Below are positions 7,858 to 59,037 of a stretch of 64,000 nt of DNA, in pieces. The position numbers and the translations under genes were made by a program. The notes beneath the pieces were generated by a model. That model did no database searches. It had not been told where the DNA came from and worked only from the letters and a program-made list of their open reading frames with translations. This DNA is from Phycisphaerae bacterium (GTDB lineage: Bacteria > Planctomycetota > Phycisphaerae > UBA1845 > Fen-1342), in assembly GCA_022072445.1 (NCBI GenBank), contig JAJVHV010000001.1, positions 124,001 through 188,000 of the forward strand, in the 5' to 3' direction. Position 1 is the stretch's first letter. Every line of letters starts with the position of its first letter.

Positions 7858-8112
7858 GCGCTTCTCACGTCAGACACCGGCCCCGCCGAAACGCCACGCG
7901 CAGCACTCCCGCCGCCGGCGTGCTGCTGATTCGGCGCGCCCCGGCGTCGCGCGGGGAGCATCGGCCGGCCGGTGCGAATGCCGCGCTCACAACGCGGCGA
8001 GCGCCCGTGTACGTTGCCCGGCTTCCGGCCGTGGTTGTTTCCCGTGGACGCCCGACGGAAAGCGCGCCGCGCCGAGCTTCGTTTCGACCGCGATCGCTTG
8101 CGCCGGTCGTCA

Positions 8113-54378: not shown

Positions 54379-57327
54379 TCAGCGAGGGGTTCGACCTGGG
54401 CGTGCCCCCGAACTCGGCGAAGTCCGGCGCCGCGCCCGCCGCGGACGCCTCGATTCCGCCATCGCGCGGTAGTACGCGTCCAGCAGCGGACGCAGCCGCG
54501 GCGCCACGTTCTGCTCTGCCGGCGGCGCGATCGTCGTGGCGTCGTCAACTTCGCCGCGCGGTCGCAGGCGTTCGAGCGTCAGGTCCGTGGCTCGCCGCGT
54601 ACCCGCCGCGGCGCGCTCATCGCCCGGCCGGTAAGCATGCGAGGAACGCGCGACCGCGCCGCTGCGCTCGACGCCGCGCTGCGCGTGCAGACGCTCGACC
54701 GCGCGCGTGAACGCCTCCCGTCGCTCCGGCGAGCGCGTCAGGTCCTGAAACGTGCCTTCATCCAGCACCCCACGCCGCTTCAGCAGCTCCAGCAGGTCGG
54801 TCCGCTCCGCGCGGCCCGCTGAATCGATCGGCCCGTCGCCGACCGGCGGCGGCGCGTCGGATTCGACGTTGCCGTCAGCCCGCGGTTCCTTCGACGGCGG
54901 ATCGCCCACCGCGGTCTCGCCAGACGGCGCGGGGCCGGCCGGCGTGCTCGGCAGACGCTCGCCGGCGCCGCCACCTCCGCCAGAATCGCCTTCGCCGCTC
55001 GCGTCGGAGCGCGGCGGCGTCTCCCCAGATTCTTGCGGGCTGCCGGCACCGCGGTCGGCGGGGCGGCCGGCGCCGCTCTGGCCACTCTTGTCGGAAGGCT
55101 GGCGACTATCAGCTTGTTCGCCGGGAGTTTCCTGCTGGCCTGATTCACCGCCCGAATTGGACTCGCCCCGCGGCGCCTGCGACGGCGAGTCCGCGGGTTC
55201 GCCCTCGCGCGGTTCGCCCGGTTGCGAATCGCCATCCTGCGAATTCGTATCGCCCACCGCGACCTTCGAGTCGTCCGTCGAATTCAATTGGCCGCCGGCG
55301 TCGCTCGCGTCGCTGTTGGGCTGCTGCGCGAGCTTTCGTATCTGTTCAGCATTCTGACTGACGAATTTCTCCCAATCGTCGGCACCGCCCGCGCCGCCGC
55401 GTTCCGGCCGTTCGCCTTGGCCCTGCTCGGCCTGGCCGCGGCCGCTCTGGCCGCCAGCGCCGGGGCCGGGTCGTTCGTGCTGCGAGTCACCGCCGCTGTC
55501 CACGTTGTCGCCACGGTCGCCATTCGCACGATCGACCTCGTCCGCGCCACGGGTCGCGTCAGCGGCGCCGGCCTGGCCGGATTGCGGGTCGCTCTGCGGC
55601 GACTCACCGCCGCCGGCAGGTTCGTCGGCTTCGCTCGCACCGTCACCCGGGCGCGACGTGGGCTCGCCGGTCGGGGCCGAGCGCGTCAGCGTGAGAGCGG
55701 TGCTGCGTCCGGTCTGCGGGCTCGGGCGACCATCGGGTAAAACGCGCCGATCGCGCGCTTCGACCCAGCCAGCAGCCCGTTGCCCCGCCGCCAGCGGAAT
55801 GCGCTCCGTCGCGACGCGCACCTCGCCGACGCACCGTTCCGGATGTTCCTCGCCGGCCGCATCCGCATCGTGCGATCTACGCTCCGGTGCGATCACCAGC
55901 GGCAGTCGCCACGTCCCGCCATCGTCGCTGCTCAGTACGAAATCCGCCTCGCCGACGCCGAGATCATCGGCGACGTGGACGACCAGTTCGGCGATGACGG
56001 CAAGATCGACCGTCGCACCGACGGACGCATCCTCGGCCGGAGTGATCCATTCGACCGTCGGCGGCTCGTCGTGCCGCACGGTGATGCTGTGCCTCTCGGC
56101 CGCGCGTGGCCGCCGGCCGTAGGCGTCGCTGAATTCGATCCGATAGAGACCCGACTCCAGCAGCGGCACCTCCACGACGGCACGCGTCACGTCGGCGGCG
56201 TCGATCCGCATCCACGTCCGCGCGACTTCGTGATCGCCGAAGACGAAGACCGGATCGCGCAGCGCCGTGCGCCCCCGAATGGCGATCGTCGCCAGCGTGC
56301 CGGCCCAGGCTGTGATCTCCGGACTGCTTGATACCGCTCTGGGCAGACCCGTGTATGCCGGCGGCGAAAGCGCGACCTCGAACGCGAGGATGGCCGGCTG
56401 CGGCTGCACGCGAATGACGCCTTGAAGCGTCGCGTCACCCCCAGCCGCCGCATAGTGAATGTCGCCGACCACCTCCGATGCCGCCAGCGTCACACGCCAG
56501 CGCGACGAACCTCCCGCGCCGTCGATCGGCTGCATCCGCCGTCGCAGCCAACGCGCTCCCGCGCCATCGTCGGCCGGTCCATCGCTCGCTGGCACAACAC
56601 CGTTCGAGCCATGCCACGCGAATTCGATCTCGTCCGGCAGTACGCCGGCCGCGCTGACCTCGACCGCAAGCGGCTCGGATTCATAAACAACCGCGTCGCG
56701 CGCCGGCCGCTCCAGCGTCAGTCGTGTCGCCGTCGGCACTGCCGCCCCGCTGCCCAGCAGGCGTCCCAGCGACTGCGGCGCCGATTTCGGCGACAGCAGG
56801 CTGTATCCGGCGAACAAGCCGAGCAGCACCGCCCCCGCAATCGCGGCGCGGCGCGCCGCGCGCCGCACCGGCGGTCGTATCGCGCCGGCCACGCGCGCGT
56901 CGCGCGCCGCCTGCCGAATCGCCGCGCCGCTCGCTCCCTCCGGCTCCACCGTGTCGCGCGCCAACAGCACGCCGTTGATGATCGAGTTGTGTCGCACGCC
57001 CCCGTCGCGCTCGATCCGCCACGCCGCGAACAGGTCGCTGATTCGCGACGCGCGCCGCGCGAACGCCAGCCATATCGCAGTTCCCGCCGCCAGCGCCGCG
57101 GCGGCGATCAGACCCGGCACGAGCCCGACGTGCGGAACGCCCCCCGGCACGACGTGATCGACGACGACCAGGCTCAGCAACACGCCCAGCAGCACGCACG
57201 TCAGGACCGCCACGCCATCCGCCAGCCACTCGCGGGCCACGCGCCAGCGAAACGCCCCGAGCAACCCGCGCAGGACGCCGCGCGCGTCCGCGGCCCCGTC
57301 AGCCGGAGCGATCGAGTCTTGTGACAT
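54379..57327 (-). CDS. Large membrane protein, DUF4175-like, with long disordered linker
   Basis: 982 residues from ATG 57327. The N-terminus has two membrane helices (GVAVLTCVLLGVLLSLVVV, GLIAAAALAAGTAIWLAF) and a third after a basic stretch (AIAGAVLLGLFAGYSLL). Beta-rich repeats follow to about residue 550 (for example TRLTLERPARDAVVYESEPL). Residues about 550-850 are almost wholly Gly/Ser/Glu/Gln/Asp/Pro, surely disordered. A C-terminal helical segment has LLELLKRRGVLDEGTF, and the end (RLRPLLDAYYRAMAE) is common in planctomycete proteins of this kind. It is 17 bases downstream of the STN-like gene. Function unknown; the DUF4175 comparison is by architecture only. Confidence 0.78.
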   Translation of the reverse strand: MSQDSIAPADGAADARGVLRGLLGAFRWRVAREWLADGVAVLTCVLLGVLLSLVVVDHVVPGGVPHVGLVPGLIAAAALAAGTAIWLAFARRASRISDLFAAWRIERDGGVRHNSIINGVLLARDTVEPEGASGAAIRQAARDARVAGAIRPPVRRAARRAAIAGAVLLGLFAGYSLLSPKSAPQSLGRLLGSGAAVPTATRLTLERPARDAVVYESEPLAVEVSAAGVLPDEIEFAWHGSNGVVPASDGPADDGAGARWLRRRMQPIDGAGGSSRWRVTLAASEVVGDIHYAAAGGDATLQGVIRVQPQPAILAFEVALSPPAYTGLPRAVSSSPEITAWAGTLATIAIRGRTALRDPVFVFGDHEVARTWMRIDAADVTRAVVEVPLLESGLYRIEFSDAYGRRPRAAERHSITVRHDEPPTVEWITPAEDASVGATVDLAVIAELVVHVADDLGVGEADFVLSSDDGGTWRLPLVIAPERRSHDADAAGEEHPERCVGEVRVATERIPLAAGQRAAGWVEARDRRVLPDGRPSPQTGRSTALTLTRSAPTGEPTSRPGDGASEADEPAGGGESPQSDPQSGQAGAADATRGADEVDRANGDRGDNVDSGGDSQHERPGPGAGGQSGRGQAEQGQGERPERGGAGGADDWEKFVSQNAEQIRKLAQQPNSDASDAGGQLNSTDDSKVAVGDTNSQDGDSQPGEPREGEPADSPSQAPRGESNSGGESGQQETPGEQADSRQPSDKSGQSGAGRPADRGAGSPQESGETPPRSDASGEGDSGGGGGAGERLPSTPAGPAPSGETAVGDPPSKEPRADGNVESDAPPPVGDGPIDSAGRAERTDLLELLKRRGVLDEGTFQDLTRSPERREAFTRAVERLHAQRGVERSGAVARSSHAYRPGDERAAAGTRRATDLTLERLRPRGEVDDATTIAPPAEQNVAPRLRPLLDAYYRAMAESRRPRRARRRTSPSSGARPGRTPR

Positions 57328-57344: not shown

Positions 57345-58184
57345 CTACGGCGAGCGCAGCGTGACGCGTCCGCCGAGCTTCTGGTGAACGGCGATCGTGT
57401 TGTGAACGATCAGCTTTCCGTCGAACGTGCGGATCACGCCTTTGCCGCCGTTCTGGCTCCACGACTCGGGTTCGATCGACGTGGTGATGACGTCGACCAG
57501 TTGTGCCAGCCGCCGCGCCTGGCGCTCGCGCCCCGCATCGCGCTCGTCGTCGCGTTCGTCGGGGTTGTTGTTATCGAACTGGATCCGCACCCCGCTGGTC
57601 ACGCGGCCCATCACCGGCGCGTAACCGACGGCCCCGGGCGCCACCTGCGGCACCAGGCCGATCGGCGTGGTGTACGTCCGTCCGATCTCGATCGACGGAC
57701 TTTGTGTTTCACGTGAAACAACGTCGCGCACGTCGTAGACCCGCGTCACCATTTCCCCGCCCAGGTCCTCGTCGGTCGAAACGACCACCATCTCCGGGTC
57801 GGCCCGATAAGCGAGCTTCACGTCCTTGTCGGCGGCCTGGTTCAGGATCAGCCACAGCACACGCCCGACGTCCACGTGCCGCGCGCTGAACGATATTTTC
57901 TGCTCGCGCGACACGCCCGCTTCGTCGAGCTTGTCCCACTTCACGACCAGGTTGACGCGGCACTTTTCGGCGACCCAGGCGAACGCCTCTTCGAGCGTCG
58001 CGTCCTCGAATTGCACGCGGGCCACGCGCCGCTCGAGCAACACGGTCGCTGGCAGGTCCGACTCGGTGACGCGCACCTGCCGCGGCGGACGCGGCTTGGG
58101 TTGCTGTTTCCTGGCCGAGCGCGTCTGTGCGTCGGCGCTGGTGAGGAGAAGTCCCAGAACCGAGAGAACGCAGACGAGACGCAT
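57345..58184 (-). CDS. Exported STN/secretin-N-like protein; carries a parS site
   Basis: 279 residues from ATG 58184. The signal peptide is LVCVLSVLGLLLTSADAQ, then a basic stretch. Residues about 60-150 (VQFEDATLEEAFAWVAEKC to LWLILNQA) match the secretin and TonB short N-terminal domain pattern seen in many planctomycete exported proteins. The C-terminal half resembles a region after it with TRVYDVRDVVSRET and DVITTSIEPESW. Gene spacing of 17 bases to the DUF4175-like gene suggests an operon. The codons for VVSRET contain the parS palindrome. There is no outer-membrane secretin domain, so it is not a secretin itself. Confidence 0.8.
   Translation of the reverse strand: MRLVCVLSVLGLLLTSADAQTRSARKQQPKPRPPRQVRVTESDLPATVLLERRVARVQFEDATLEEAFAWVAEKCRVNLVVKWDKLDEAGVSREQKISFSARHVDVGRVLWLILNQAADKDVKLAYRADPEMVVVSTDEDLGGEMVTRVYDVRDVVSRETQSPSIEIGRTYTTPIGLVPQVAPGAVGYAPVMGRVTSGVRIQFDNNNPDERDDERDAGRERQARRLAQLVDVITTSIEPESWSQNGGKGVIRTFDGKLIVHNTIAVHQKLGGRVTLRSP
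57705..57720. promoter_or_regulatory. parS chromosome-partitioning site
   Basis: TGTTTCACGTGAAACA is a perfect 16-base palindrome and matches the consensus ParB-binding parS site of chromosomes exactly. It lies inside the STN-like gene, encoding VSRET on the minus strand. A given 16-mer is expected about 0.000015 times in 64 kb by chance, less in G+C-rich DNA. I saw no second copy in the window. Confidence 0.88.
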
Positions 58185-58323: not shown

Positions 58324-59037
58324 GTGTTACGCGTATTGCTCTGCAATGACGACGGAATCGACGCGCCGGGCCTCGCGACGCTGATCGCGGTCGTCCGCGA
58401 ACTCGGTCATGCACCCATCGTCGTCGCCCCGCGCACGCAGATGAGCATGTGCGGGCACGCGATTTCCGGACGCGACGCGGTCTCGGTCGAATTGCACGCG
58501 ACGACCGATGGCGTGCCGCGGTATGCCGTCGACGGAACGCCCGCCGACTGCGTGCGGGTGGCGTTGCGGCACCTGCCCATCGGGCCGGTCGACCGGGTGA
58601 TCGCCGGAATCAATCGCGGTGCCAACGCCGGTGTCGACGTTTACTACTCGGGCACCGCGGCGGCGGCCCGCGAGGCGGCAATTCTGGGCGTTCCGGCGAT
58701 TGCGGTCTCGCAACTCATCCGCGCGGATTTCGACGACGACTGGACCCCTCCCGGTCGGAATGCGGCGCTGGCGCTGCGCGAGATATTACCGGAGCGCGCG
58801 CGGCCGCGGGGCACGACGTTTGTGAACGTCAACCTTCCCGAGTTCCGCGACGGTTGCGCGCCGCGCGGGCTGCGCTGGTGCGACCTGACACCGGCGCCGT
58901 TGCTGATCGAGTATCAGGACCGTGCGGGCGCGGTCCGCAACACCGGTTCGTATTTTGCGCGACCGGCGCCCGCGGGGTACGACTTTGCGCTGCTGCTGGA
59001 AGGGTGGATTACGCTGACGCGTGTGGCGATATTCTGA
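58324..59037 (+). CDS. surE: 5'/3'-nucleotidase SurE
   Basis: 237 residues from GTG 58324. The family's N-terminal signature appears as LRVLLCNDDGIDAPGLATL with the metal-binding Asp pair. VVAPRTQMSMCGHAIS and VDGTPADCVRVAL are the next conserved blocks, and VIAGINRGANAGVDVYYSGT is the nucleotide-site loop. SurE removes phosphate from nucleoside monophosphates under stress. The gene is divergent from the STN-like gene with 139 bases between starts. The pcm and rpoS genes found next to it in gammaproteobacteria are absent. Confidence 0.95.
   Translation: MLRVLLCNDDGIDAPGLATLIAVVRELGHAPIVVAPRTQMSMCGHAISGRDAVSVELHATTDGVPRYAVDGTPADCVRVALRHLPIGPVDRVIAGINRGANAGVDVYYSGTAAAAREAAILGVPAIAVSQLIRADFDDDWTPPGRNAALALREILPERARPRGTTFVNVNLPEFRDGCAPRGLRWCDLTPAPLLIEYQDRAGAVRNTGSYFARPAPAGYDFALLLEGWITLTRVAIF

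Follow-up and report, generated by a model that had tools for sequence, protein, structure and literature searches.

When a perfect ParB-binding site turns up inside a protein-coding gene, does it place the surrounding DNA near the replication origin, or does it tell us something else about the chromosome that carries it? The question arises from a 64-kb stretch of Phycisphaerae DNA (hereafter, the window), in which the sequence-only reading had pointed to a parS palindrome that matches the consensus at every base, that is extremely unlikely by chance and that may signal an origin-proximal location. The window spans positions 124001-188000 of contig C2 in the source genome (G000), a draft of 5.25 Mb in 50 contigs, and the features of interest are given in Table 1.

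Table 1. Features in and around the parS-bearing gene (positions in the window).
Feature	Position	Strand	Remarks
parS palindrome TGTTTCACGTGAAACA	57705..57720	.	perfect consensus match; minus-strand reading V-S-R-E-T
Left flank GACTTTG	57698..57704	.	without the CAA arm of the family
Right flank TCGC at arm position	57724..57727	.	one mismatch from the TTGC of the family (near-miss)
Host gene, 279 aa, start MRLVCVLSVLGLLLTSADAQ	57345..58184	-	without Pfam family
Large ORF (context only)	54379..57327	-	follows the host gene in reading direction, same strand; without Pfam family
surE (context only)	58324..59037	+	divergent neighbour of the host gene

The palindrome and its host gene

Two of these claims were borne out. 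The motif is perfect and palindromic, its 16-bp core being that of parS and not NBS, and it is the sole match to parS at up to three mismatches in the 64 kb scanned, for which shuffle controls yielded a mean of 0.07 matches even with three mismatches allowed. Over the whole draft, the scan recovered eight perfect copies and one with a single mismatch, i.e., nine sites on seven contigs (C2, C4, C7 with two, C14, C30 with two, C32 and C34), to be compared with about 1e-4 perfect copies expected in 5.25 Mb according to our own estimate from base composition (GC about 0.67). A reversed but not complemented control pattern had no match in G000.

The start of the host protein is, in our judgement, signal-peptide-like; its description as an STN-like protein could not be confirmed, since a Pfam search of the protein returned zero matches. 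The site directly follows a conserved YDVRD motif and falls in a linker whose length and sequence differ from one homologue to the next, so imposing five residues there is cheap, and the protein constraint at VSRET is probably weak. On the DNA side, the codons used (GTT TCA CGT GAA ACA) are rare, with a joint synonymous probability of 2.8e-6 under the codon usage of C2, and a second VSRE of the same protein is spelled GTG TCG CGC GAG, which makes DNA-level constraint the simplest explanation. Hence, of the proposal that two selective constraints share the same bases, the sharing and the DNA side stand, the protein side being the doubtful half.

Within the family, homologues of the host protein share no more than 43% identity with it and are multi-copy paralogues, and the palindrome is absent from all the host-gene homologue loci that were fetched. 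Such an absence, together with a single copy in a single gene and the lack of full arms (see below), is what one would expect of a palindrome arisen by chance within a coding sequence, but the improbable codon choice, the expectation of about 1e-4 copies per genome and the eight further sites in G000 make this explanation hardly credible.

Location relative to the replication origin

G000 encodes one full-score chromosomal ParB (178 bits) on contig C30, its other matches being weak and partial. The parB homologue, whose presence had been proposed as a check, thus exists and comes with its own pair of parS, two tandem copies 25 bp apart just upstream of the gene, which agrees with the assignment of the palindrome to the parS class. 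On the same contig, we recognised dnaN and gyrB from their translations, 8-10 kb beyond parB and its parS, and within the interval 17-24 kb the GC skew flips sharply, from about -0.3 to +0.25; the canonical copies beside parB and oriC are therefore those of C30. No ParA was evident among the ORFs adjoining parB on C30. Two DnaA-like genes score above the family cut-off in G000 (C38:2839-4101 and C14:34089-35330), neither of them on C30. As the assembly is a MAG, some of its contigs might in principle belong to a second replicon.

The origin-proximal location expected for the window is not supported by these results. Contig C2 (366 kb), in the middle of which the window lies, has no skew flip like that of C30, the sign changing several times along its length. 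Because the origin region falls on C30 and a minimum of 181.7 kb separates the window site from either end of C2, i.e., roughly at least 200 kb from the C30 centromere, the step from "parS" to "origin-near" cannot be upheld. An attempt to place the window by SurE synteny with near-complete relatives failed, since the genome encodes two SurE paralogues, the best match being in another draft; the surE of the window shares 52% identity with one in G011.

One might still argue for an ordinary origin-domain parS: every G000 site would lie in the origin-proximal fifth of the chromosome, oriC being a few hundred kb away from the window, as with the outlying sites of Streptomyces or P. aeruginosa. Several parS near the origin are indeed the rule (PMC7333895), and the G000 sites could fit within as little as 0.83 Mb, or 16% of the genome, a lower bound given that the contigs are unordered. 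Set against this are the distance of the site from the C30 centromere, the wandering skew of C2 compared to the sharp flip of C30 and, as detailed below, a spread in many-site relatives that exceeds 31-40% of the genome, so that we regard this reading as unlikely.

Dispersed sites and extended arms in Phycisphaerae

A survey of 114 genomes of the order with YGTTTCACGTGAAACR returned 0-3 sites for most of them and nine for G000, and revealed four outliers with 60, 50 (G062), 31 and 27 (G004) sites; elsewhere in the phylum, the maximum was 13 sites among the 392 genomes sampled. The many-site genomes fall in three families, in which close relatives keep 0-3 sites. The sites span at least 31% of the genome in G004 and at least 40% in G062 (contig-based lower bounds), more than the origin-proximal 20% that normally harbours the vast majority of parS (PMC7022226). 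Wide dispersal is thus proven in relatives and not in G000, whose own sites could fit in 16% of the genome.

In some genomes, half or more of the sites are intragenic. A dnaE2-like gene carries parS at identical codons and with identical spelling in two genera (G000 C4 and G024 C205), which indicates that some genic sites persist. Beyond the parB locus and this gene, no other dispersed site was shared between the genomes compared; since few of them are common between genera, individual sites appear to turn over and single copies are unlikely to be essential.

In the family of the window, the palindrome is extended to GCAAnnn-parS-nnnTTGC. At 12-15 bp from the dyad, each arm is separated from the core half-site by about one helical turn and hence lies on the same face of the DNA. 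TTG occupies the arm position in 83% of cases in G020, 62% in G004, 75% in G007, 100% in G024 (three sites only) and 33% in G000, compared to a background of about 1% and to 8% in the few-site genomes of the same family. The 31 genic sites alone have TTG in 33 of their 62 arms (p = 3e-48 against the 1% background, sites taken as independent), and the open frames read VSRET at 20 sites and FHVK at 11. Over 85,000 species genomes, the strict extended form was found mostly in Phycisphaerae, the exceptions being six scattered Firmicutes and actinobacterial matches, about as many as expected by chance according to our own estimate. A single strict extended parS was also observed on a viral contig (IMGVR_UViG_3300037515_000667, positions 7987-8016). 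G062, which is of another family, has its sites in doublets spaced by 31-32 bp, with A/T arms; in G109, the sites are clustered and lack clear arms. With at most one weak arm, the copy of the window ranks among the weak or young members of the dispersed set: a real site with an ordinary core in an unusual setting.

Could a REP-like mobile palindrome containing parS have copied itself around these chromosomes, the match to ParB being incidental or parasitic? Many intergenic sites of G020 do bear a one-sided hairpin extension, TTTGCGTCGCGCAA, and the sites of G062 abut AATCTGCG repeats that also occur alone. Yet every match to the strict extension pattern adjoins a parS core (18/18 in G020, 3/3 in G000), so the extension does not occur as a repeat of its own in these two genomes, and no conserved repeat body surrounds the core, the extension being one-sided and limited to part of the intergenic sites. 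Moreover, the sequence between core and arm is variable and shows no palindromic covariation, as expected of a protein-recognition motif rather than of a copied hairpin; the arms at genic sites lie within open frames; the flanks beyond them are unrelated; and the window copy has no one-sided extension at all. A mobile element is thus quite improbable.

A few further observations concern these extensions. In G020, they comprise a small hairpin (e.g., at loci L101, L106 and L107), and two G000 loci (L082 and L085) show a one-sided hairpin extension, CGTTTGCGCGCCGAAAGTGC, beside parS. By eye, they often face away from the 3' end of a nearby gene, and none was seen at genic sites. At about position 2429 of G020 locus L113, a variant parS, GTTTCACATGAAAC, still has its extension, which suggests site turnover.

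ParB and the possible use of dispersed sites

The best PDB match of the G000 ParB is the Caulobacter ParB 6t1f (9.6e-49), with which it aligns across the DNA-binding domain, keeping the residues at R173 and G201. These positions are absolutely conserved among ParB orthologues, Noc having Q and R instead (PMC7383237). The ParB of G000 thus lacks the Noc-type Q173 and R201, and its specificity residues are of the parS type. Given this alignment and the two retained residues, ParB would be expected to load at the sites. In the ParB tree, the many-site genomes form no clade and many forks are poorly supported, so no ParB residue can be linked to dispersal.

The dispersed sites might instead be operators of another DNA-binding protein that recognises the same core as ParB, be it a transcription factor or a ParB paralogue. 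This would fit the lack of arms at most parB-proximal sites of few-site genomes, as well as the three extra ParB-like proteins (about 590 aa) of G062. In contrast, the parB-proximal cluster of G020 has the same arms as its dispersed sites, G004 yields a single ParB hit for its 27 sites, G000 has the lone full-score ParB described above, and a set of sites of which half or more can be intragenic is unlike operators; we therefore consider such a protein very unlikely. The extra proteins of G062, in which many of the 50 sites form doublets, are encoded on its contigs C9, C30 and C41.

Altogether, the site in the window is probably a genuine ParB-loading site that belongs to a dispersed set and not to the origin cluster. 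The two parS beside parB on C30 would serve as an ordinary origin centromere, and the same ParB would be expected to nucleate at lone copies elsewhere, including the genic copy of the window. Lying about one helical turn outside the half-site, the outer GCAA...TTGC arms may stabilise isolated sites, strengthening them enough for a lone copy to load ParB clamps. The most likely use of such loading would be chromosome-wide recruitment of ParB/SMC or nucleoid organisation, in a Noc-like manner but through ParB itself; by analogy with the dispersed Noc sites of Firmicutes, we hypothesise that dispersed loading organises the chromosome. In Caulobacter, transposon work has shown that the cell tolerates an additional parS cluster mainly when it lies no more than about 500 kb from the native one, mid-arm positions being disfavoured (PMC5815017). 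As mid-arm parS are costly there, the action of ParB or SMC would have to differ in the lineages studied here.

Compared to known systems, the closest likeness is with the chromosomal ParABS of Caulobacter crescentus, Bacillus subtilis and Streptomyces coelicolor, which have the same 16-bp core, matching ParB specificity residues and, as in G000, two parS adjoining parB, close to dnaN/gyrB and to the skew flip. Known chromosomal systems have from one to about 20-23 origin-near parS (PMC7333895), whereas the Phycisphaerae relatives reach 27-60 sites, dispersed wherever their spread can be bounded and, in one family, flanked by an outer GCAA/TTGC arm. Since both ParB and the core are canonical, we interpret this as a variant of ParABS rather than as a separate system. 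Noc offers a parallel, as a ParB-family protein with many chromosome-wide binding sites (binding being presumed in our case), but it is a ParB paralogue that recognises a different site (PMC7383237, PMC7333895), whereas in Phycisphaerae the core is exactly parS and ParB keeps R and G. Likewise, the ParB of P. aeruginosa engages DNA away from the origin, as ours may do, but at hundreds of 7-bp half-sites that give narrow peaks (PMC7022226, PMC10419367) and not at full palindromes with arms.

In the open literature, of which our coverage was partial and mostly limited to titles and abstracts, we found no report of such a dispersal or of such an extended site. How parS sites multiply and why they are confined to the origin is a stated open question (PMC7333895). 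It is possible, and we propose it only tentatively, that ParB has come to organise the whole chromosome in several lineages of Phycisphaerae, parS having multiplied to dozens of copies, as extended GCAAnnn-parS-nnnTTGC sites in one family and as 31-32 bp doublets with A/T arms in another, and the origin-only rule having been broken. The occurrence of 27-60 sites in members of at least three families, next to near relatives with 0-3, amounts to a natural experiment on the origin rule, and the extended ParB site provides a concrete biochemical prediction.
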